64,000 bases of DNA. Origin: Physcia stellaris. Lineage: Eukaryota > Ascomycota > Lecanoromycetes > Caliciales > Physciaceae. A model generated the notes under the pieces. That model made no database searches. It was not told the origin of the DNA and saw only the letters and a list, made by a program, of their open reading frames with translations. Location of the stretch: assembly GCA_018902385.1 (NCBI GenBank), contig JABSSW010000010.1:310001-374000 (forward strand). Reading direction: 5' to 3'. The position numbers and the translations under genes were made by a program. The first letter of the stretch is position 1, and the number at the start of each line of letters is the position of its first letter. This document shows, piece by piece, positions 1-47,150 of this stretch.

Positions 1-3000
1 ACGAGTTTCTCTGTGTTCATTTCTAGATCATCTAAATACGCTTTGAAAGTGTTATTTTCCGTTTTCAACGAACGATTTTGTCGTTTCAGCTTTTCAATTC
101 GTGTACGAAAAATTCTTGTCGATTTCAATCATAATGCGAATTGTTTTTTATTGACAATTTCGTTAGCGACTTGTTTTCGAATCAATTTCACAACTTTGTT
201 TTCAATCGTTAATCGAGTTTTTTTCATTTTGAACATGAACTTGTCGATTTTGCATGTAATGAATTGATAAATTAAATTGACACGCGTTTTTTTGATTTTT
301 TTTGCTTTTCGATGTTTTTGTTGTTTTTCGAAATTTTCTCGTAAAGAGATTTTTGTTTTGTTTCAATTGTTTCATTCGTTTCTTTTTGATTTCAGTTTTT
401 GTTCGAAACAAATTGAATTCGCGAATTTTGTTTTTGAAAAAGTCGAATTCGATTGCTCAAAGTTTTTTAAACGTTTATTCGATCATATAAATTCGTCGTT
501 GTTTTTTTTAACATCAAATGATAATATTTTTCGAACAAAACATTTTTAAAATTTCAAACGTATGAAATTATGATTCATCGTTTTTTAATCGTAAATGACG
601 TGTCGTTGTTTAATTTCAATAATTTCTTCTCGCTAAATTTATTTTTCATGAAAACGTTTTTCGTGACGTGTTCATATTTTTGTTTTTGTTTTGTTGTCGT
701 TTTTCGTTTTTTCTTTTTTGTTTTGTTCGATTCAACAATTTTTGTTGTCGATTTCTTTTTAACATTCATCGTTTGTTTTTGAAATTTTTGAAGAATTTTC
801 TCTGTGTATGAAAAAATTTTTTTCGTGTTTTTTGCAATTTTTTTCGTGTTCATTGTTTGTTGTTTTGTTGTTTTTTCTTGCTTTTTTTTTTTTTATTTTT
901 ATTCTTTTGCTTTGCAATCTTTTTTTGTTTTTCTGTATTCATTGTCTGCATAGATGCTTTTTGCACATTAATTGAAAATATGAGTGATGATAAAGTGAAT
1001 AAAAAAAAAGTGTGCGAATTTCTCGCCGTAATGTGTTTCTCAGTCGAGTAGTGAGATTGAGCTGAGTGAAAAGATGATTTCGGAAATGAGAAATTTGATA
1101 ATTCGTTCATGATATTTTTGTCGATCGCAAAGTTCTGTAATTTTGTGAAATTGAAATGTCTTTGAAATTAAAACTTGAATTGAATGAAACAGGCGATTTT
1201 ATAAGATGAAATCTAGTTTGAAATATTCTGAATCGAAAAACGTATCGTCGAAAATTTGAATTGCGCTAAATCATAATGAAGATATTACGAAAATGAATAC
1301 GACGAAAATCATCATATCGTCGCGAAAAAATTCGCGAAATTGTTATCGTCTTGCGTGCATCTCGTTTCGCTCAAATATGTCATTTTGTCATAAGTGATTA
1401 CATTTTTCATCGACGTTTTTAGATTTGAACAGTCTGTAATCGATTGTTTATCTTGATATTTCGAATTTTACATTTTTCAGAATGAAAATTTAACGTCATC
1501 GTGTTTTGAACGAGATGAAAAAATTCATTATTTTATTTTTTTCGAATTTTTCTCGAAATCTTTTCTGTCGAAACAAAAATCGAAAAACAATACACGATAA
1601 ATATTAATGAATCATGATTTCTGTGAAGTCTTTCAATAGTGTCGATGATGATCGTCTGTCATAATTGATAATTCGTTTCGCGCAATTGTGAAATCTCATT
1701 ATTTGATTTATTCATTGAAATTCATAATTTGAACACAACTTTTTGAGTCTTGTGATTCACACTCTGCTTGAAAGTAATGCTAGTTGAGATTTTTCAAATG
1801 TTATTTTACGACAGGCGTTTTTGAATTGAAAAATTTCGTTAAGTTTCGATCTTCATAGTGATTTGTGTGATGATATTTTGAAAGTTTCTAAATCTCGAAA
1901 TTAAGTGAATGCTGAGAGAGACACTCGTTCGTTAAAGTATTATCGTCGATTATTTTCGAGCACACTTTCAATGACTGTAAGTTGAATAATGTAGATTATT
2001 GTTGCGTCAACGTTCTTTTGTATCTCTTTAAAGCATTATGCGATTTCAATCTCGCTCGATTTTCGATTATTGATTGATTAATTGTTGAAAATTCACGATT
2101 TTTTTTCATGTCACGTCATCAATTTCATTTCGTCTCGTTCTCATAATTGTCGATTGAAATATTTGATGATACATTTCATCACTTTTTGTCGATTTTTTTC
2201 GTTTTTTTTTTTTCATCGAAGTTTTGATCGCTCGTTTGCAATTTTGCTTTTTTAATTTTGATTTTGTCTCGATGTCACTGTTTCACGTTTTGCCGAATTT
2301 GATTGTTTATTTCTGTTATCGATTTTCAATTCTTGATTTGAATTTTATGTTTTTTTTTTTCAATTTATAATTTAACATCGTTTATCGAATATCGTTTTTT
2401 GACTTTTTCGATATACATTTTTTCAATCAGAAATTTTTTCCGTGTTGCGTCAATTTGCGAACAATATACGAATTTTTTCATTTTGTTTTCAATTTATGCG
2501 AATGTTGTTTTTTTTGCGTCAAACGTTTGAGTTTTATCAAACATTTCGTCGTAATTGAATTTTTGACGTTTTTTTGTTTTTTTTTTTTCAATCAATATTT
2601 TTTTTTGATTAAATCGTTTTTTTTCACGATCTGTATCGCGTAATTCATTCAGTTTAAATAATCGTTGTTCAAACGCAAATTTTTCAATAGTTAATTTTTT
2701 TTCAATATTTGAAAAAAAAGATTTTTTTAAGATAACATTTTTATCATTTTTATTCGCAATGAAGTTTTCGTAAAATGCGTTTTCGATAAAATATTTAAAT
2801 TGATAATCGAACAATATTTTCGTTGAAAAAAATTCGTATATACGAATTAGTTGATATTGATTGCATTCACAACATTAAATAGTAACAAATTTCATTCGAG
2901 AATCATTTTTGAATGATGTTGTAAAATTGCGCGAAAACAATTCAAAATGAAACGATTGTATCGTTCGAAAAGTTTTACAAATTGAAAATGCGAAATCGAA

Positions 3001-6000
3001 ACAAAAATTTGTCATATTTTACGATGCGATAAATATTTTGAAAATAATTTTTTAAAATGCGTTTCATTATCGTGATATACGATTTTTGAACATTCGAATA
3101 CGTTTATCATTTTTTTTTCGAAAAACATGACAAAATTTTCAAAAATTGCGTTTGACATTGCGTCAGCGAACAGAAATCGACACATGTAATCGACGTCAAT
3201 TTGTATAAATTTCGTTTCATTTTTGACGATAAAATTGATCGATTTCAAATAATTTGTTTCGACAAAATCGAATGATTGAATGAAAACAATAAATAAAAAT
3301 TTTTCAATCGATTTTAAAAAATTCAACATTTGACAATTCGAACATGAACGACAAAATTCAAAAATATTTTTAAATTTAATCGATCAATAATATTTTTCGA
3401 TTGTTTTGATTTGCGTGATTTTTTTCGAAAAATGTTCACAAACGTTATGCAATAAAATCAGAATTTGAATCATTTTTTCGACATGAAAACAACGATTATA
3501 ACGTTCGAATTTTTCAAAATACGTCAATTTTCGCGAATTTTTGCTTTCAATTAACAGAAATTTTTTAAATTTTTTTTTTGACATTTTATGAACGATTTCA
3601 AGCAAAAATTATCAATTTTAATAACATTTCGAATTTTGTATTTCACGATATTCGCATATCAGAAATCGTTTAATCATTTTTGTCAAATCATTTTTCAATC
3701 ATTTTTCGAAATCGAAAATGTATCATTTTGAAATTGTTCATCATTTGTCGTAATTGAATTTTTTGTTATTTTCGACAATTTGTTCGCTAAAAAAGTAAAA
3801 AAATTATTTCATAGAAATTGTTCGTCATTTGTCGTAATTGAGTTTTTTGTGACAGAAAAAATCATCATCGTAAATTCGAAACTGAAAAACGATAAAAATG
3901 AATAATTTATGATTTTTGACAAATCGTTTGTTATGATTAAGTTTTTTTTTTGAAACATGAATGATATTCAGATTGAATTTCGATAACGTTAATTGTCAAC
4001 GAGTTATTTTATTTGTTGTATTTTCGTTTTTCAAACATTTCGTTAATGTTGAATGATTCGTGTACAATTTGATCGAATATTGAAAATTTTGTATTAATCA
4101 TTTGATTTTTGTCAAACATTTCACGATTGTTAATGTTTTTTTTTCAATAATTTGATATTTGATTTGTGAAAAATTGTATTGATAATTTAAAAACATCATT
4201 ATTTGTATGTCGTTCAGAAATTTTTTACGATAAACGATTTCAAACGAATGATTATCAAATTGAAATAAAATTTCGTTTGTTTCAATTTTAAAAACGTCGA
4301 TAACAAAATGTCATTAACGTGTATTATTTTCGTTTGAACATATGATTTTTATAATTGTTTTTTTAATTTTTGAAATATTCGTTCATGATTGAAAATTTAC
4401 AAAAATTTTTTTTCTGTTTAACATTTTGTTTTTTGTCATTTTCAAAATGATGATTGTTTTTTTCATTATGATCGTACGAAGAAAAAAAAATCGATCGACG
4501 CGTTCAAAATATATTTTTAAAAAAAAATAACATGTACAGAAAACGTTTCAATTTTCTTTACAAATAAACGAAAAATATTTTCTAAACATTTTTATTTTGT
4601 TTTCATTGAATTTAATGTTTTAAAATTTCGTTTATGTTTTAATAATTGTATTTTGAACGTGAAAAATTCGCATTTTTTGAAATTCAAAATAAATTTTGCT
4701 CATATTAGTTTTGAAAAATAATGAATATGTAAAAAATTAATCAATGTTTGTAAAATGTCGAATTTTTTTACGTCGTCATCAATAAAATGATTGAAAATTG
4801 AATGTTCAAAATTCACATTCGATAAAACAAATTTGAATTCGATTTTGATATATTGTTTGTAACAATATTCTTTAATTGAAAATATGTTTCAAATTTTTCT
4901 GTTGTATTTTGTTTTATTCTAAAATAACAATAAAATTCAATGATTGTATTGATATCAAATTTGTACGTATAAAAAAAATGAACAAAAATCGTTCAAAAAT
5001 CATTCGTCGCGTTCGTTTTAAACAAATATTTGACGAAAAATTGTGTTAAATTTTTGAAAATTGATTCGATTTTACGCATTGATTGATTCGTTTTGATAAT
5101 AATTTCGTTTAAATTACAAAAAACATGCATCATTTTCAATTTTTCATTTGATTTTCGAAAAAATCGTGTTTTTGAAAATCAAAAAAATTGTATTTTATGA
5201 TGATTTCAGTTTTTTCTAACAATGAAATATTTTTTTTTTTTTGTTATTTCATTTTTTTTGTTGTGTAAAAAACAAATTTAATTATTCGCGAAATGATATG
5301 TTGATACGTTGAAATTTTGTATTCAATTAAATTCGTAAAAAATATATTTTTAATATTCGTAACAAAAACGTCTTTTCAAATTTCTAATAAACAATGTATT
5401 TCATGCTTTTTTTGATTCGTAACGATCAAATTTTTTATCAAATTTGAAAAAGTTTTCAATCATAAATTGAATTTTTTCGAAATTTCTGTTAATAATTTTT
5501 TGCGAAATTCAATTGATTTTCTTTTAATAAAAAAATTCATTTTTTTTTTCTCAAAGATTTTTTTTCATCATGTATTTGTATCGAAATTTCTTGATAAATA
5601 TTTACGACAAAAAAATTGAAAATCGAAATTTTCTTTTTCGACGATGATTTTGTTAATCATTTTTAATAATTTTCGATCATTTGTATTTGCGTTTTTTGAA
5701 ATTTAATTTTCGTCGCATTTTTAATCGAATTTTTTATTTTATGTTCGAATTTTTGTTTACAAACAATTTTTTCGTTTTTATCATGTTTCAATTTCATTCA
5801 CATCGTAAACAAATGATTTATAATAAAAAATTTGAAAAACATTTTTTTGTTTCGTCATTCATTTTTTTTTTTTCGAATTTATTTTTGTCAATCAAATGTT
5901 TTTCGAAAAAAATTTACGTCGAATTTTTTTATGACAGAAAATTTTGATGTCATAATGTAATTTGTCGATATTTCAATTTTTTGATGATAGTTTACGTAAT

Positions 6001-9000
6001 TAATTTCATTTTTTTATTTTTAACAACGTTTTTTAATTTTTTTTTTTGATTTTTTATTTTTCGATTATACATCGTCGTTTTTATTTTGACGTCGACATCA
6101 TTTTTTCGATTTTTTTAATTTTGTTGAATGATTATTTTCGTTCGTTTTACGTTTCAATGTCGTCGAAAAACATAATTTTTTTTCTGATTTGCGTTTTTTT
6201 TTTTCAAATTTATTTTTATCATCAAATTAGTTTTTTCGTTTCACATTTTTTTTCAATTTTTTTTACGATTTGTCGAAAAAATTTTTCAATTTTTTTTTTT
6301 TTTCGTATTTCAAATCAATGAACGTTTCGATATTAACATTTTGCATTAACGCGACGTTCATTTCAACTTCGTATATTTTTTTTCGATTTTTTTTTTCGAA
6401 ATCAAATATTTTTATTTTTTTGTAATTTTTTGCAATCGCGTTTTTAATTCAATATTCGTCAAATTTGTACAAATCGATTGCGATTACGTTTTTTAATCAC
6501 GATTTTTTTAAATCATCGAATAAATCGTTTTTTTTGACATAATTCAAATTTGTATCACACGATTAATTTTTGTCGTGACGATTTTCAATTTGATATATTT
6601 CGAAAAACGAATTTTGTTTTCGTTTGTTATGATTATTGTCATAAATTTTTTCGAATATGTAATTTCGTTCATTGCGTGAAAAATTCGTTCAAAAATGAAA
6701 TTTAATGTAAAATTCGAATCGACAAACATTTTTTTGATGTTTTAAATATTAAACAATGATTTGCGAAATCTGATCATCGTTTGAATGTAAAAATTTTTTA
6801 TTAAAAAATTCGTTAATGAAATTTGAAATGAAACAAAATTAATGAAACGACGATAAAATTTTTTGAAATCGTTTGTTGAATTTTTTGCGAAACGTTTCAT
6901 GCGTTTGTAAAAAATTTTTGATTTCATCGTGTGTCGATCTAATGAATTTGATCGAAATATATTGTTTTTTGTCATTTTATGAACATGATTGACTTTTTCT
7001 ATTTGTTTTGCAAATTGTACATTTTTTTTGCTTTTTGTCGTAAAAAGTCTTTTTTTTTTTCGATTGAAATTTGATTGTAATTTTATTACGTTTGTCAATT
7101 GTGTTTTTGTTCGCGAAATCATGATTAATAATTGTTTCAATTCAATGTTAATGTTGATATTTTTTATTCAATCATTGAAATCAAACATTTTTTCGTTTGT
7201 TTTCACAATTTTTATGAATTGTATTTGTGTTTTATTTCTTGTTGTTCGTTTTTGTTGAGTTTTTTGTATAAACGAAATCAATGAAACAAATGACGCATTC
7301 GAATTATTTCGTATCGTTTTCGAATTCGATGATTTATTTTTTATAATTTCATCGATGAAATCAAATTTTTCAAAATTTGTAAAAAATTTCGATGTTTAAT
7401 TTTGTTGAAATCGATTATTGTTAAAATTTTCAATGCGACGAGACATTTTGATTTTGAATTTTTTTTGATTCATTATTTTTTTCAAAATGAAATTTGAATC
7501 AATTTTGTATTCGATCGCATTTTTTTTAACGATCAATATTTTTTTTTTGTTTTCACAAAATTCGCATTGATTGTTTTGATTCAAATATATTTGTTTATCG
7601 TCTAAATTTCATTCGTCGATCATTTTTTGTCATTTTGAAATATCATGAATGTTTGTTGAATAACAATCGTGTTCGATCATAAAAAATTTTGTCGTACGAA
7701 ATCTTTTCGCAAATGATATTTGTTGTGTCGTCGAACGTTTTTTTTTTTCGTTTTTTCGAAACAAACGATTTGTATCTTTTTTAAACGTTTGAAAATGAAA
7801 ACATTGTTTGAAAAAATGTTCGATTTTTTCACAATTATAACAAATAAAAAAATTAACATTGTTGAACGACGTTGCAAATGATACAATTGCAAACGCGTAA
7901 TACAGAAAATATTGTAAATTTTTTTTGAAATTTTTATTTTGTTGTTTTTCATATTTTTGATTCTGATATTTTTGTTGATTATTTCGATTTTGATTGTTTT
8001 GATTTTGATTTTTCTGATTGTATTTTTGTTTTTTTATTGAATGCATCATTACGATAAAAAACAAAAACATTTTCGACATTTTTTTGTTTTTCAAATTGAC
8101 GTTTTTTGAATGATATTGAAACGTTGAAATCGACAAATTGTCGAATAAAAATCGAAATGATTTTGTTATTTTGATTTAGAATGATTGCAAATATACGATT
8201 TTTTGAATTCATTTTTCGTTGTAATTTCGTTATCGAATTTTTTTTATTTTGATTTTCGATAATATTTTTGATTAGTTTAACAATGATTTCAAAATCGTAC
8301 GTCGAATTTTCTTTTTGTGCAATTGTTTTTTAACGATTTTTTTCGTCATGTTATCGTTCAATTTCGATATCATTTTGTATAATATTTGATTTTGTATCTT
8401 TTTGAAAAATATTCGTTGAATTTTTTTCGTTTTTTCAACATATTCACTCAACGATTTTTTTAATTGTTTAAAATTATATAATGCATTTAAAATCGATTCG
8501 TATTCAATTTTTTTTTTTTTTAGAAAATTTTTTTGCGAAAGTTTTTTAAAAACATTTCAATTTTTCATCAAAATATTTTTTTGATTATTAATTCATTTGA
8601 TTGCGTTTTTTTTAATTTTGAATATCACGATGTAACATTGAAAAATTTTTTTGTTTTTCGTGTTTAATTGTGATTGAATCAAATATTGAATTTCGATGAG
8701 TCGTAATCATCGAGAAAAATTTTTCGAAAAATATTCGTGAAAATTCGAAATTTGTATGATTTTCGAAAACATTTTTTTTTGATAATCAATTACGACAAAC
8801 GTTTTTAACGTATTGATGTTTTTGAAAATAATAAATTGTTTCGTGAAATATTGTGAAAATATTTTCACAAAAGTCGTTTTACGATGAAAATGAGAAATTT
8901 TTCGTTGAAATTGCTTAAAAAATGAAATCAATTCGTCGATGAAAATGAAAACTCGACTTTTTGATTTTGAAAATTCAATAAAAATAACGAGATTGTTTAT

Positions 9001-9830
9001 CGCAAAAAATTTTGATAAATCAATAAATTCAATTGATGATTTAAATATCGAAATGATTGCGAATGTTGAAATAAATTCGAAAAATTCGTTTTTCAATGTT
9101 TTGCTATTTATCGACATTGAAATTACTGATTTAAAAACAGATAATTTAATTGAATTTCACAAACGAATTTTTTTCGTCTGTTTTTTTTCTCGAATTTTGT
9201 ACAAATCAAAAATAAAATTTATGTCAAAGTTCGATTTTGACATCAATTTATTTTCAAAAAAAAATTTATGATAAATGTTTTCAATTTATTTCGATGAAAT
9301 AATTGAAAAATGATAAGTTTTGAAAGAAAAATTATGACAAGTGTTTTTTTTTCAAAAATCGTTGAGAAAACTCAACGAAAAATTTCATTTTTCGAAAGAT
9401 GCGAATCTGTTGATTTCGACTAAAATCGATTATGATAAAATTGTCAGAATTGATAACGAAAAATGCGAATATTTCGAATAAACAAATCGATGATAATAGA
9501 ATGAATTGTTGAATGATTTTGCGATGTGATAAAGTCGTAATTTTAATATTTGATGTATGAATGATGTTTTTGAAATTGATGAATAATCGTTATTGTATTG
9601 TAAATTTTGAATTTTGACGTTTGACGATTTTCAAATTCTTTTATCGTAATTTCAATTTCATTCGACGTTTTGTATTTTCGTGACATTCAGTTTCGAATTT
9701 TGATTGCGAATCAATGATAAAAATTTAAATAATTTCTGACTAAATCATCAAATGAAAAGTTCAAATAGTAGAAACAACAAGAAAATCGATATTACGATAG
9801 AGCACAATTGAGTGATAAAAATGATTAATT
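1..9830. other. AT-rich, CpC/CpT-depleted block
   Basis: This block is very AT-rich and ends abruptly near 9830, where the sequence turns to normal composition. A hand count over 5641-6300 gives 66 C residues on the plus strand: 33 followed by A, 32 by G, one by T and none by C. The complementary signal agrees, with three ApG and no GpG there. About 850-2150 is milder: over 1621-1860, 11 of 33 C are CpT and none is CpC. The numerous Phe- or Lys-rich open frames are products of the T and A runs. I see no host gene. The block is best read as a heterochromatic, repeat-derived isochore altered by a directed C-to-T process. Whether it is a centromere flank, a subtelomere or an ordinary AT island cannot be told from this window. 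Confidence 0.85.
2494..9117 (-). mobile_element. Ty3/Gypsy LTR retrotransposon fossil, deeply eroded
   Basis: Scattered minus-strand frames keep recognisable pieces in the order expected for a Ty3/Gypsy element. A Gag-like stretch ends in a CCHC zinc knuckle (spacing C-x2-C-x4-H-x4-C) near 7803-7844. An integrase zinc region lies in 3384-3605 and an integrase core in 3012-3329. A typical post-core segment with an ELR-like motif lies in 2494-2814. The reverse transcriptase and RNase H should fall at about 3.7-6.5 kb, but I could not recognise them with confidence. Limits are those of the recognisable parts; no LTRs or target duplication were found, and the element may extend on both sides. It is broken many times over and looks old. 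More than one insertion may be layered here. Confidence 0.7.
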
Positions 9831-10950
9831 TGCTAGCTACGGCCAGAGGTCAGATATGCACTTTGATGACTAACTAGCGGCCATATCGGCCATAGCACCT
9901 GCAGGCCCTACAGCGTTAGGCGATTCGGAGGCTAGCAGCGTGGTAAAAGCATAACATTTTCAGGATTTTCATCGATGATGCTCCATTTCCCAATGTGGAC
10001 GGGAGGCGCAAACTTCCCCACGCGTCCTAAGATCGTCCATTCGCTACCTCTGCATTAATCCATCACTCACTCAGGTATAACGTACCACGCTTCATGACCT
10101 GCAGAATGCAGGATGCAGGATGCAGCCCCACGTGCCCCTGCACCGCCGGCTACTCGCACCCGATCGTACCTAGGTAAGTATGTGACAATTCTCCACTCGT
10201 CACCGCGCGCCCGCATCGGAATAATTTTGAAGCCAAGGAGTGGCCAAGGCAAACTCATTCTCTAGTGCCGAGGTTCATCGTACTAGAGCAACATGTCGTG
10301 CCACCTCGAGGCTGCCTGAGACATACGACAAGAAGTCTCTCCTTGCTGATGGTTGGCCCACGAACGCCCGAGCTCGGAGCCTGCCATGGGGGCTATTTTG
10401 TATGGCGAACAGCTGCGAAGAGCCGCCGCAAACCGCCAGGGTATGAGAGGGCCAGCTTGTACAGCGATGGACTGGTAGGCTTACCCTCGTACGGATATCC
10501 AATTCCAACGTGCATTCAAGAAGCGAGAGCGAGGCCTGCATCTATCCGCGATTCACCAATCGCGTCGCGGTCGAAAAACCGGTCATCGCCTTCCGTGATC
10601 ACGGACCAGCTGGACTCAAGGACTACTCGTACTATGGCGGTCCAGTACAGTCGATTTCATGACCCTGAGGCTACCACACAGTAATTGGCAACATTTCTAT
10701 TACACATAAATTGAAATCCTTGTCCATTCAATGGATTTGTGCGTACAGCCTAGTACTTCGGAAACGAAAAGTCATTCAGCCCTTGTTCCTTCGATACTAC
10801 CTCGCTTCTCCTGGCTAAGCAAGTGCCGGACAAGTTACACTTTCTACGTAGAACATATATTGCTGTAGTGAACTGTCCGCTCTTCTACAGTTCGCAATCT
10901 TGTAGCCCACATAGCCTATCAGTATATCATATCTTTTGGCAAAGTCTATA
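9831..10950. other. Intergenic, tyrosinase upstream region
   Basis: Normal-composition sequence lies between the AT-rich block and the tyrosinase start. It includes a run of small open frames, the longest being 139 codons at 10265-10684 on the plus strand. That frame overlaps equally open frames on both strands and shows no recognisable domain. No gene is called here; the promoter of the tyrosinase presumably lies at the right end. Confidence 0.6.
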
Positions 10951-39878: not shown

Positions 39879-40005
39879 AGAATAGGAGCAAAGCAAGGAG
39901 GTGATTCTGTAGGTAGAAGATGCATGAGGAGGTCTACGAGGCCAGACGGCCGGTTAAGTACATGTTGGATGACTAATCCACACTAGCCTAGTGCCTCCTT
40001 CTTCT
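39879..40005 (-). repeat. 3' LTR of the Ty3/Gypsy fossil
   Basis: Direct repeat of 47024-47150, 127 bp without gaps and 121 matches. The plus-strand copy begins AGAATAG and ends CTTCT, so the termini are an inverted AGAA/TTCT pair, not the usual TG/CA. The outer flank is GTGGG, matching the flank of the other LTR. The composition is normal, unlike the mutated core of the element. Confidence 0.9.
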
Positions 40006-43000
40006 ACTCCCATATAACAAGCAAGAGCCCCAGCGACCAACTCAGCACCTAGCCATATAGACCTGCCCGAGTAGTATACCAAACCAAACAACCTGCCTAG
40101 CATGCCAGCTATCTCATGCTAGCTAACTAGTATCCCCCATTTATCTTTTTCTTTCTAAGTCTTGCGCCGCTGCTTACGTGACCGACGTATAGTCTGATCC
40201 GACTCATACTGATCAAAAATGCTGTCTGATAAATAGCCAATTCGCGATATAAACGTCTTTAAATGATTTTCATGAAATGTGCCACGTATGTCACGCCCTG
40301 TAACTGATTGACGTAATGTGAACGAGAGCTCATGGATATTTTCATAATTTGTAATCTGAAATGGTTCGCGTCAGCGAGATTGTAATTTGTCAAACGTCTT
40401 CTGATATAGCATGACCAGACTGTTTATCTGATGTACTATTTGTTTGACTTTTTTGTTGTAACGACGTGCTTCAGTCTCACGTCGACGACGTGTAATTTTT
40501 CGAACGATATCGTGTAACTCAACTTTATATTGAAGATAATTTCTAACGTGACTAACATGCGTGATTGATTTAGCTAATTCGTCGTGTCAGATCTTGATCT
40601 CACGTCCTGAAAAACCTAATAAAATTGAAGTGATAGATGAGGCTTCCGACATTACTTCAAAATTGATGTCAGTGAGATTGATTTCAAGATAACCGATGAT
40701 GCGATTGTTCACAAATTTAACAACAATTGAAATGCGATAATCTCAGTTCACGCCGAAATGATTTTTGCGTAACATCTTTTCAAAAGCTTGTTGAATAACT
40801 CTATCATGTTTGTAGATTTGAATGAGCCAGACGAATTGTATTCGATAACTGTGTTCTCGTTTCGAAAAAGTCTCGTAATATCGAATTGTTGAAATGCTGA
40901 TTTGAATTCACATAAAAAACGTAAGATCGTCGATACATTGCGAAAAATAGACGTAAACATCACAATACGTTCTCAACGTTGTCCGTCTTGCAGACGAAGA
41001 ATACAATGAATCGATTGAAATAACACACAATCATTAATATATATCGACAGTCATTGATAGTCTCATCGAGCGACTCAATGAAATTCATGTCACAAAACTG
41101 AAACGAACAAGTCACAAAAACTGAATTAAGTGATTGTGACCGAATAACTGAACCATGTCTAGCACAGTCAATACATCCGACTATGTATCTCTTTACATCT
41201 TGAGCTTGATCTGACCAATAGCACTTGTCACGTAATCTAACCATGATATCAGTTTTAGCTCAGTGATCATTATTATCGTGAACGTCAACGAGTACATCGC
41301 GTATCTTAATTTCAAATATGCATGACAAATAATACTCGCGACGATGTATTCATAAAATGTCAACTACTATCCGATAATCGAAAGATCGCTTTATTGTGTT
41401 CGCTGTAAATGTTTCGTTTTGCTCAACAAAAAACCGATATATCGCATCACATTAAACAGACTTGCTATAAACAGCTTGTCAACTAGCATCCGTATGCGCT
41501 ACTGCTGTAAGAGAAAAGATTGACAAATCATCAATGATATCATGCTCTAATGTTTCCGATTTGTGTGCTGAATTCAAAATAGTTAAAAACTCATCGAAAT
41601 CTCTCTTGCCATCCTTTCATACTCAACTAGAATCTCGATTCGTGACCTCTTCACGTAACTGACTGATAATATTGTTGTTGTTACAATCGACATCAAACAA
41701 AGTTTTTGATAAAGCGTCAACTATCTTATTTTTATGATCAGATATGTACTGAATGATGATGTTAAGTCGCCGTAACTGGTCTGCTCAATGACCATAGATA
41801 TTCTCGTGAAAATCGTTTTTCAAAAAATGCACAAACGATTTATGATCAGTGTGTATGACAACTGACAAGAAAGAATGCTTGCACAAATAATCGTATTTAA
41901 TGACGAATGTGACAATATCGTACAGCTCACGCTTGTAAGTAAAATACTTTCGTCGAATAAATGATAATGCGAATGAGTCATAAAGAATAGACACTTCAAT
42001 CGTTTTGTTGTTGATAGCAGTAGTGTCCACCGTATCAACTGACTGAAATTGAGTTATAACTAGCTCAACCGCAAAGTCAAATACATCAATATAAAAGTGA
42101 ACAATCAGGCATAAATTGATGTCATGCATGTTTGACTTAATAACACACTTGATTCGTAGCACTTCGAAAAACAACTGTTCAAATTTTTGTCAACGCCACT
42201 CGACTTTATCAGTGAGTCGTGTGAGTGATTTAATCAATTCTGCAAAATTCTTGACTCAACGTCTAATGATATTCACGATACCTAAAAAGTCACGTACGTC
42301 GAACTGATCTTTAAACATTGATCAACGAGCTATTTTGGCTATTCGCTCTTTCAATATTCGGACAAAATCATCAACAAAATGAATGACATTTAGCGTTCTG
42401 ATTTTTTCAGCAAACAATTGTAACTTCTTGAATGATAACAATAAACGCGCTCATTCGACTCGAAATAAGAAGTGCTCTCTCAAAAAAACATATTGCTTTT
42501 CGAAACTAGCAAAATCATCGAAAAAATCATTCATATAAAACGTGAACATCGATAAACTAACTGAATCATTTGAGTGCAACAATGAAAACTTCTTAATGAA
42601 AAAAAATAACGAACCAAAGTCGCGATACGCCAGCTCAATCATAATAAAATCAGCTGATTGTGAGTCTTGTTGCATACGAGTAGATTGTACTTGATCAATA
42701 CCGAATATTGTGAAGACGAAATAGTGTCTATCATTCGAATGAAATGATATAATGAAATAAACGTGCTTCAGGTCTGCTGCGAACAAACAGCGATGACGTG
42801 AATTCGACAAATTATCATGAACTTTGCTAGACAGCTCGAAATGACTATCTGATAGCTTTTCGTTCACTCGTGAATAATCGAATGTCACTCTAAATTCATC
42901 ATTTGATGTAAAATTTTCGACCTTGTTTACAACAACAATTTTGACGTTTCAACGTGACAAGCGATCATTTGCTGGCTCGAAAAGTTCGTAAATCTCATTT

Positions 43001-46000
43001 TTCATGTCATCAATAATGATTTTGCGTAATCATTACTCGATATGAATTGATCAACGCTTCTGAATAATAATGCTAACTGATTTAATGTCAAACTTGATTC
43101 GGACTTTGTGAATAAGTAGATCGATACATGATAGATTCGTCAAGTCAATGCCATTAAAATGACGATAATGATAGAACAAACACAGCATTTTGTGCCTATT
43201 CGTTTCAATAAATATAAACGAACCTAAAATTAGCCCGACAAAAACAACCCAATCTTCTAATACATCCTTTGATATGCTAGAATCTATGAATGATCGACTA
43301 ATAAGCCGAACTGAAAACGAATTGATTTGTCTACTTGGATCCACTCGAAATCTATCGAACGTGACAGAATAACTAAAAATGCTCGACACACTGAAGGCTG
43401 AAATTGAATAATCAAATCGATCAATGAAACGAATAGCATCACGCTTCTTGATTAATGCCAATGATGTAATACTGAATTCCGATTTAGTAATTTATTGAAA
43501 CGCAGTAGTTACACGAATCTCGAAACGGACATTTTGACTAAACTGAAAAGATGAATGTTCAAGCAATTTAACGTCATATTGAGAATCTAGTGAAAAAGCT
43601 GCATCGAGAAGAATGATTGTACTGAATTTTCGATATCAGATAAATCATTTTTTTCATCACTATCATTTGAGTCGAAAGAGTCGAAAAAACTGACTTCTTC
43701 GACTTTAAACTGTAAATGACGCTTTTGCTTATTGCTAAACGCTGTCATAACTGACTTTGAATACATTAATAAATTATGATCATTACAAAACACTAACTTC
43801 GATTCAACGACAGCTTTGACTGTCTCGTCTTGATTCACGTCATCAATCATAATTTTTGACTGACGAATGAATATTAGAACGTTCACGAAATAAAATCAAG
43901 ATAGCCTCAATATTAAATTAAAATGTTTTGTTTCATCGAAAATCATGATCTGAGATAATTCTGAAACTACAAAGCAGCGTATGTTCCGAACTATTTTCTC
44001 AATATTTACGCGTAATCAGACATAATGATGTAGTATGATCTTTTTATGATCGACTGTACGCATAAATAAATTCTTGAAGTCAATCTTTTCAAGCGAATGT
44101 AATTGAAGACTGAAATGACGTATCATGTCAACAAATATGACATTCATGTCAAAATTTTGATTTGCTTGAATGCAGCGATTGTTCAGCAAAACAATTGTAT
44201 CATTTGATTTGATTATAGTGCACGATATTCTGAAGATTTTATCGAATTTTATCATAGCACTCAAGAAACGCGTGTGTCTCTCGACATTTTGTTGTGATGT
44301 TATAGCATTGAAAATTGTATCGAAAAATTGCTGACTAACAGGTTGTGAAAACATCTGTGAAAGCTGATTCTGACCAAACTGAATCGACGACATAAATACA
44401 TACGTCTGCTGTACTGACTGAGAAATTTGCTGAAAGATTTGAGAAACAAACATCTGATATGCTGAAATAAATTGAAAAATATATTGAAATATCATCGAAT
44501 TAAATTGCTGTGCTGATTGATCAACTATCTTTTTAAATTCACGCTTCTTAGTTACGCGTGTACAAAAACGCTTGAGCTTTCGACACACTGTAAAAAATCA
44601 CGCTATAAAATTCATTCAAATTAAATCAACCTTGTTGTTCTGAAATATTTGTCGTATAAATATAGCTGAATCGTATTTGCTCGATGCGTCATCTAACATG
44701 TCAATTATTGACTGTGACTCGAACTTCTTTCTTTCTTGACTTTTCTTGTTTTTTTTAGATTTGAAATCAGCAGCGGCTTGGAACTGATACTGCTGATCGG
44801 CTACCGGCTGTGTAAAGAACTGCTGACTAGACAAAAAAGAATTCGATGCCAATCGTTCAGATTGACTAGATGCTAACTTCCTTGATTCGATATTCTTCTC
44901 AACATGTGAACGTTTGTTAATTTCAAATTTTTCGTCATACAATGCATCGACAGCATTGACATCATTAACATGTAAACGCATAAACAAACCAATTATCCCG
45001 ACGTGAATAAAGTGATTAATCGAATTGCTCAAAGCATCACTCATCAAAGCTGTTGATGTAAATGAAATAATCTTATCAAAGAATGTAACTGAAAAATCAA
45101 AAATAAAATAGCTATCATAAAATCGAACGTTGTCATCGAAATCTTCGAAATCAACCTGTGCGAAATTCACTTGTGCTGACTGACCGAACACTATTTCACG
45201 TAAATAAAATTGTTTTCACGTCGATAGCACATCGTCACTACACTCCTTAAATATGTGATCCAAGTGATCACACTTAATGCATAGCCGACCGTCCTTATTC
45301 ATAGTCCATAGCTTAGTATCATTGATGTAAAGATTTTTAAAAATAATACGATCAAATAGATTTTTGACAATAAATTGATACCTATCAGCTTGCTTACGTG
45401 CTGGTTGTGACGATCTCGATGCTTCATTGACTCGATTGAAATTAACAGCTAATGACTGACGAAAGACAATTGAAACTGATAATGTTGTATTCATCATAAA
45501 TACCTGAGACTGAATCGAAGCTGTAGCAATATTGAAATCTTCATAAATTGATCACTGAAATTCTTGTTTCTGTGCCTGTAACTTAACGACGTGATATTTC
45601 GTAAACAAAATCTCTATCTGATGACGAAATAAATTGCGCTGTGCTAAATTTTTGTAAAATGATAGTTCATCGTACTTAAGCTTTTCATCAAAAAATTTTT
45701 TGATTTTTATATTGATACGACGAGTCTTTTCAGCTAGCTGATATATCGTACGTAACGATCGATTTGACGAAATCATGTCTTTAATAGTTTTTTTTCGGAT
45801 TTCCGAATCCAGCAAACCCCTGATGAACGCACGCAATATGATATTCAGCATAACAAACTCAAGCAGGATAAAAATAGTTGTAGCAGCAAAAACAAATCTA
45901 TTCTTAACATTTATTCGCTGCATCAAGTTAATAACTCGCTTGTAATAATCAATTAAAAATTCATCGTCACGCTGACGTAACTCGACTAGCTTCACGTCGA

Positions 46001-47023
46001 ACGATACAGGTGTGATTTCGACGATCTTGCTAAGAAAACGCTCACACAATAGTGACTTGAATGAAACTACTGTGAGCTGAATAAATATGAATCGTTGAAC
46101 AAACGTATTGCATCAAAATGATTTTCAAACCAGTCTGCAACGTCGTCGATAAACAACATGCTCACTGATTCAAAATACCTGTCAACAAAAATTGCATCAA
46201 TAACAACTGTCTTGTAATCAAACATTTCGTGCTCGAACTTCTTGAGCCATCGTGACGCTGATATGTTGTCCTGACCAAAAAAGATGTCACAGAAAGCGAA
46301 CGTAGAATCAACTAGCTGATACGCCATGATGACTGACGTGCTAGATGTATCAATAGCTGATGATTTTACTGAAACTGATATGGAGTTATCGAGAGATGAG
46401 TATGCAGCAAACGAAAATGATGATGAAAAAAAGATTCGATGAATCAGAAAAACGTCTTTGTAAGATGACAAATGACGCGTAGTCTCCTCCTCAGATAAGG
46501 CAGGAGCACTTTGACTATTTGCCATTGTACTGAGCGTTGAACCGTACCTTCCGGAACTGGATGACAAAGTGAGACTGCCCTCGAATGCCGACGGATCCGA
46601 TTTCAAAAAACTGTCTGCTGGGTTTGTTGTGAAGCTCGCTGACAGCTCGTATTTGAGTGGTTTCGGCGAAGCTAGGTGGATAAGAGAAAAAACGTGATAT
46701 TCCAGCGTGATGATTGCTGGATCCAGATGTAAAGACAGAGGGTAGGCGACGAGCTGTAGTGACGGCAGCAAGCTAGGTCGAGTGTAATTGTAACAAAGTC
46801 AGTAACCAGCTAGACAGCTATCGATCGGGAGTAAGCGAAAAGCAAAACAGACTGCTATACGTCGCAGCTGGCAGACTTCAGATAGGTGAAGCGGAATGCG
46901 ATGATTGATGGCGATGAGATGAGATGCTCGTAACCACAAGATATGACCGGTAAAACGATGCAATGACAAGCTAAAAGACAACGTGATGCACTTCAGAATT
47001 ACATGAATCGCATCGTGATCGCC

Positions 47024-47150
47024 AGAATAGAAGCAAAGCAAGAAGGTGATTCTGTAGGTAGAAGATGCATGAGGAGGTCTACGAGACCAGACGGCCGGTT
47101 AAGTACACGTTGGATGACTAATCCACACTAGCCTAGTGCCTGCCTCTTCT
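47024..47150 (-). repeat. 5' LTR of the Ty3/Gypsy fossil
   Basis: Partner of the repeat at 39879-40005, with the same length and termini, and GTGGG following at 47151-47155. Five of the six differences between the two LTRs are transitions. Confidence 0.9.

Follow-up and report, generated by a model that had tools for sequence, protein, structure and literature searches.

Repeat-induced point mutation (RIP) of fungi is mostly defined and searched for through loss of CpA and gain of TpA. In Neurospora crassa the order of targets is CpA > CpT > CpG > CpC, and CpC likewise comes last in Trichoderma reesei (PMC5496416). CpT signatures alongside CpA were described from Botrytis, Sclerotinia and Magnaporthe, whose RID-like genes exist in one or two copies (PMC4352252), and from Anisogramma (PMC10998396), and strong CpT change was also noted by RIPCAL (PMC2621366) and by van Wyk (PMC7882544). 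In CpT-biased families of Colletotrichum truncatum CpA is lost as well, with TpA/ApT of 1.6-1.7 and (CpA+TpG)/(ApC+GpT) of 0.08-0.12 (PMC6180176). Monilinia has CpA-type change (PMC8959702), and in Pyricularia the MAGGY element is methylated at CpA in preference to CpC and CpT (PMC7979813). For Rhizoctonia solani a CpG bias is given in the text, while CpC is the most frequent class of single-nucleotide polymorphism by spacing (214 bp) in the table (PMC4014442). Methylation induced premeiotically (MIP) only methylates (PMC4352252). In the present study two transposable elements, element 1 and element 2, were analysed in a 64,000-nucleotide stretch of the Physcia stellaris genome (contig 10, C10, JABSSW010000010.1, positions 310,001 to 374,000, called the window throughout), and both carry tracts depleted of cytosine followed by a pyrimidine (CpY), as opposed to cytosine followed by a purine (CpR).

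This transposon DNA was probably struck by a RIP process with a CpY preference, in the order CpC > CpT >> CpA > CpG and on both strands. In this way the fungus appears to inactivate its transposable elements while hardly touching CpA. The changes are concentrated in transposable elements, and contig ends and transposon remnants elsewhere in the genome bear them too.

Paired copies of element 2

Searching the genome with window positions 42001-44000 returned a single other copy of element 2, inverted, on contig 42 (C42). The features of the element are as follows.

39879-47150, minus strand: element 2, gypsy-type, with 127-bp terminal direct repeats and domain matches
39879-40005 and 47024-47150: its terminal direct repeats, 127 bp, 95.3% identical, not CpY-depleted
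40138-46300, no strand: partly mutated body, with CpC/GpG mostly gone and CpT/ApG far less so
40673-47150, no strand: stretch aligned with the contig-42 copy (C42:414133-420602, inverted, 86.7% identity)
40960-41259, minus strand: Integrase_H2C2 piece, 24.5 bits, just under the cut-off of 25.5
41785-42189, minus strand: RT_RNaseH domain piece, 27.4 bits, cut-off 24.8
46500-47150, no strand: terminal part of element 2, near normal in the window copy; on contig 42 heavy mutation reaches as far as the terminal repeat

Positions holding only C or T in the two copies, and C in one of them or both, were paired between 40,673-47,150 and contig 42, leaving out of the counts gap-adjacent sites and 28 sites whose 3' neighbour was ambiguous (13 C/C, 15 C/T). 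C/T differences were found at 87 of 91 CpC and 560 of 652 CpT sites, and at 53 of 920 CpA and 44 of 576 CpG sites. Where the 3' neighbour itself varies, 48/53 sites had changed with a C/T neighbour and 4/48 with an A/G neighbour. Pooled, 695/796 CpY sites had changed versus 101/1,544 CpR sites (odds ratio 98), while the other bases from -3 to +4, the +1 base excepted, had little effect. The C-to-T change depends on the 3' neighbour. The first-pass annotation of the window had proposed a repeat-directed C-to-T process acting at CpY, and had named the alignment of copies, with the context of every C/T difference tabulated, as the way to check it; the changes proved to lie overwhelmingly at CpC and CpT with CpA and CpG mostly unchanged, and this, together with mostly-TGA stops in three domain families (below), supports the proposal.

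The C-to-T changes might instead come from a cytosine deaminase, APOBEC/AID-like or other, that attacks transposon DNA in single-stranded form or its intermediates; C-to-T bursts on retroelements are typical of such enzymes. APOBEC/AID-like deaminases read mainly the 5' neighbour, whereas in this pair the outcome follows the 3' neighbour and hardly the 5' one; in addition, both strands are fully mutated, and remnants of DDE_1 DNA transposons share the TGA stops. A deaminase is therefore quite improbable, and the role of the 3' base speaks instead for a methyltransferase that reads CpN.

The CpY changes were strongly one-sided, with the T on contig 42 in 647 of 695 cases and in the window copy in 48, whereas the CpR changes were split 47:54. 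For this reason the CpY changes are a directed burst, mainly in the contig-42 copy, and not slow decay, and that burst left CpR no more changed than in the other copy. Both strands were mutated on contig 42 (388 CpY changes on the plus and 259 on the minus strand), giving dense C:G to T:A transitions on both strands of repeated DNA, as in RIP.

These figures bear on a second alternative, in which the DIM-2-like enzyme of this genome (L010, below) methylates CpY in heterochromatic repeats and the 5-methylcytosine deaminates to T over many generations. A DIM-2 relative is predicted in the genome, the DNA concerned is rich in AT and over-represented at contig starts, and DIM-2 of Neurospora methylates mostly non-CG sites with CpT preferred, according to a review (PMC13297926). 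Against gradual loss stand the 815 transitions versus 46 transversions of the pair and the one-sided CpY count beside the even CpR count, and CpC goes first rather than CpT. This alternative is unlikely, though less so than a deaminase.

As a control, two gypsy copies of normal composition were compared, L050 (C5:1163501-1169500) and L051 (C12:57291-63290), which are 95.8% identical over 5.9 kb and have reverse-transcriptase and integrase matches without stop. The C/T differences were 28/752 at CpA, 45/827 at CpC, 35/754 at CpG and 52/720 at CpT (3.7-7.2% across the four contexts), with 173 transitions and 56 transversions. This is a slight lean to CpT, far from the 10- to 20-fold contrast of the element 2 pair. 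Between positions 600 and 5500 of L050 the 220 mismatches to L051 fall 131, 58 and 31 by codon phase, which suggests selection on protein.

In the window, element 2 forms a second, milder CpY-depleted tract at about 40,140-46,400. CpC makes up 7.2% and CpT 31.7% of its C, and GpG 2.2% and ApG 20.5% of its G, compared with about 21% and 27-28% in normal DNA on either strand. More CpY was lost from the minus than from the plus strand over 40138-46300 (about 6 kb), as if one strand were preferred. On contig 42 the DNA preceding the element edge at C42:414133 is normal; C42:414133-414250 holds 23 CpY and 23 CpR, and the next 200 bases hold 5 CpY and 56 CpR, so that on this side mutation begins just inside the terminal repeat. 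The depletion has a sharp boundary at this edge. Past C42:420602 it goes on, and 547 bases there, C42:428102-428648, match window 40138-40681.

The saturated tract of element 1

The left end of the window is occupied by element 1, which extends over C10:309154-319904 (window -847 to 9904) as defined by 152-bp direct repeats that are 82.9% identical.

1-9752, no strand: CpY-depleted body of element 1, beginning at C10:~309,900, some 100 bases before the window
2150-8900, no strand: most saturated part by dinucleotide counts, with little or no CpC and GpG
7630-8175, minus strand: open piece with a zinc-knuckle-like C-X2-C-X4-H-X4-C motif, found by eye and without a Pfam match
9753-9904, no strand: right terminal direct repeat, 152 bp, 82.9% identical to C10:309154-309305
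10001-39800, no strand: normal host DNA separating elements 1 and 2, the control composition

A direct count over 5641-6300 gave 66 C, made up of 33 CpA, 32 CpG, 1 CpT and no CpC, with 3 ApG and no GpG as the opposite-strand equivalents, values identical to those of the first-pass annotation. Over 2151-8900, CpC, CpT, GpG and ApG together numbered 94, while the same bases shuffled 300 times averaged 738 and never fell below 684. The observed/expected (O/E) ratios of CpC and GpG were 0.00 in each of six 1-kb bins at 3,001-9,000, with 0.06-0.19 for CpT, 0.03-0.28 for ApG, 1.29-1.67 for CpA and 3.39-4.67 for CpG. These bins agree with the earlier claim that CpA and CpG are kept while CpY is lost. 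CpG had also been called far above chance, which holds for the ratio; the high value mainly reflects CpG retained while the frequencies of C and G drop, and is not evidence of CpG gain. The tract had been placed at 2150-8900, where depletion is indeed found, and it turned out to be wider, being less complete at 1-2150 and extending to about 9,750. Beyond this point GC content climbs to about 50% and the dinucleotides are normal again.

The tract end at about 9,750 coincides with the right terminal repeat, in which CpY is not depleted (28 CpY, 31 CpR). Several copies of the element align only from about window -130 to -97, and the depletion begins there too. A Pfam search with two pieces of element 1 matched no domain. 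In both elements the bodies are CpY-depleted, but not the short direct repeats of 127-152 bp at their ends.

The standard RIP indices shift in the wrong direction in such DNA. Window 2151-8900 had a product index of 0.47, a substrate index of 1.41 and a composite of -0.95, compared with 0.66, 1.29 and -0.64 in normal window DNA, so on these indices heavy damage looks less like RIP than does normal DNA of the same genome. With the standard cut-offs of 1.1 (product), 0.75 (substrate) and 0 (composite) given in PMC6714961, it would be scored as RIP-free. TpA/ApT was 0.43-0.47 in saturated and 0.66-0.69 in normal DNA; a loss of CpA with gain of TpA, as in ordinary RIP, had been set in advance as the outcome that would overturn the CpY proposal, and TpA/ApT falls instead.

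Counting the query itself, the 660 bases at 5641-6300 matched at full length at least 12 times in the 44-Mb genome, at 85-100% identity, and 11 copies were aligned to the window copy. Alignment columns at 2151-8900 were taken when C occurred in at least one copy and the next base was a pyrimidine in every copy (805 columns) or a purine (1,444 columns); columns with a mixed 3' neighbour were dropped (117 in 2151-8900, 48 in 1-2150). In the pyrimidine set C was present in all copies at 0, in most at 26 and in half or fewer at 779 columns, and in the purine set at 900, 440 and 104. This comparison is weaker than that of the element 2 pair, as CpY columns already T in every copy are invisible to it. 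In the 11 pairwise comparisons with the window copy, C/T differences were 3.5-6.7% at CpG, 8-26% at CpA and 65-90% at CpT; since CpA reaches these values, this older family has it as a weak third target. At CpC, two comparisons seemed contrary, with 9/34 changed for copy L026 and 4/11 for L024. They were rejected as counter-examples, because nearly all of the shared CpC sit in ends that escaped depletion: for L026, 23 of 26 precede the first base of the window, and for L024 all 7 fall at 9842-9905.

Genome-wide pattern and stop codons

Outside the window, loss of CpC and CpT with CpA and CpG kept, as first noted within it, was found in 9 of 10 contig-start samples (C2-C9 and C11; L041-L049), where C4 and C8 had lost mostly CpC and the start of C1 was not clearly affected. 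None of ten 2-kb mid-contig samples taken at position 200,001 (C1-C9, C11) was depleted, with GC of 0.48-0.54. The assembly seems to break within such repeats, as contigs C2-C9 and C11 start in CpY-depleted DNA.

Pooled 1-kb bins, a pool weighted to repeat copies that shows the course of damage and not its share of the genome, had CpC/CpT O/E of 0.30/0.67 at GC 0.30-0.35 (16 bins), 0.04/0.41 at GC 0.25-0.30 (59 bins) and 0.01/0.17 at GC 0.20-0.25 (66 bins). CpC is lost before CpT.

AT-rich repeats are the usual products of RIP and are hard to assemble, and nine of ten contig starts lie in them, which might suggest that ordinary CpA-type RIP, drift of composition or an assembly artefact mimics the loss of CpY. 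Such mimicry is scarcely credible: CpA is kept and TpA/ApT falls in the saturated DNA, the paired-site rates are free of any composition model, and the undamaged pair leans only slightly to CpT. On the O/E ratios, the paired sites, the indices and the control pair, RIP of the CpA or the CpG type was rejected, as were drift of composition and, provided the contig-42 sequence is correct, an artefact of assembly.

In-frame stops of transposon remnants were counted by domain family. RVT_1 remnants (150 rows scored among 527 candidates) had 250 TGA, 33 TAA and 3 TAG, with 10 rows free of stops; RVT_2 remnants (137 rows, out of 150 scored among 165 candidates) had 401 TGA, 101 TAA and 3 TAG, with 4 rows free of stops; DDE_1 DNA transposon remnants (10 rows) had 44 TGA, 3 TAA and 0 TAG. 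Together these three families hold 838 stops, 695 TGA, 137 TAA and 6 TAG, of which the 695 equals the number of CpY changes in the element 2 pair by coincidence; as related copies share inherited stops, the events are not independent. The rve remnants (6 rows) had 2 TGA.

A TGA excess is expected of CpY mutation, which turns Trp TGG into TGA. In simulated mutation of six host open frames, CpY change gave 100% TGA and CpA change 0%, while CpG change gave 61% at a 30% rate and 7% at 90%. By itself the stop test is thus compatible with CpG mutation, which the paired sites rule out. Scarce TAG fits ApG being a target, and TAA fits a weak change at CpA. TGA-dominated stops in transposon remnants would be a simple diagnostic for other genomes.

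Candidate enzymes, objections and known systems

A PF00145 search of the genome gave four matches at three genes. L010 matched 9bap and 9baq (E 2e-181 and 3e-181), which we take to be Neurospora DIM-2, and with ENV in motif VI and a BAH match below threshold it is a putative DIM-2 relative. L011/L012 (C5:498855-499792) has PPCQ and EQT motifs and L009 (C6:791557-792528) PPCQ and EET, combinations that presumably mark the RID/Masc1 enzyme class. Two diverged RID/Masc1-like methyltransferase genes are thus predicted from their motifs, and an enzyme of putatively the class associated with RIP is present. L009 and L011/L012 are 40% identical over 174 residues and differ in motif VI (EET and EQT). 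One MAT alpha-box gene was found, with a match free of stops. These genes are in keeping with a filamentous ascomycete.

In the proposed mechanism, repeats would be recognised by homology, a RID/Masc1-class cytosine methyltransferase with altered target choice would start the reaction, T would be reached via deamination and replication, and the process would act in the sexual phase, like Neurospora RIP. The responsible enzyme is probably RID-class.

Several observations weigh against a RIP process with CpY preference. The near-identical pair L050/L051 is unmutated despite being repeats, so the process would be inactive now, slow or selective, and the escape of this pair speaks against a process that catches every repeat. 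On contig 42 the depletion extends past C42:420602, beyond the aligned element, to the end of the examined DNA. It is for these two reasons that the term repeat-directed is well supported but circumstantial. In addition, the window copy of element 2 is undepleted at 46,500-47,023, and element 1 is undepleted and of normal composition over ~700 bases at its left end (C10:309154-309900). Pure CpY change also fails to account for the 143 TAA and TAG codons among the 838 stops; the weak CpA change of the element 1 family could produce them. Finally, the link of the RID-type enzyme to the mutations is inferred, and its class is assigned by motifs.

The chances seem evenly balanced that a RID-class enzyme, perhaps the paralogue L009 with EET rather than L011, switched its target from CpA to CpY, and that this lineage has full-strength RIP which every CpA screen scores as RIP-free. 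If true, RIP would be more widespread among fungi than has been reported. Surveys based on the indices could overlook a whole class, and comparison with CpA-type fungi is a natural experiment on the choice of the next base by a methyltransferase and on which enzyme mutates. Mutation at CpC and CpT with CpA spared was not found described in the sources within reach of the literature search, which Clutterbuck 2011 and Horns 2012 were not.

With MIP (Masc1, Ascobolus) the pattern would share repeat direction and the RID/Masc1 enzyme class; Ascobolus MIP methylates only, and here the bases themselves are changed. The CpG-type RIP-like mutation of Microbotryum, Rhizoctonia and Tuber is likewise C-to-T change in transposons, while CpG is the least affected context here (44/576). 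The fungi with CpA-plus-CpT RIP resemble this genome in having CpT as a major target, and differ in that CpA is also targeted and CpC is not named as preferred in the portions consulted; in contrast to the CpT-biased families of C. truncatum, the two indices are 0.47 and 1.41 here. Classical RIP of N. crassa, with RID, is similar in its dense C-to-T change on both strands of repeats and perhaps in how little neighbouring unique DNA is damaged, and putative RID-like and DIM-2-like genes exist here too. CpA is not preferred here (53/920) and TpA is not gained (product index 0.47), and the order CpC > CpT >> CpA > CpG is nearly the reverse of that in Neurospora.

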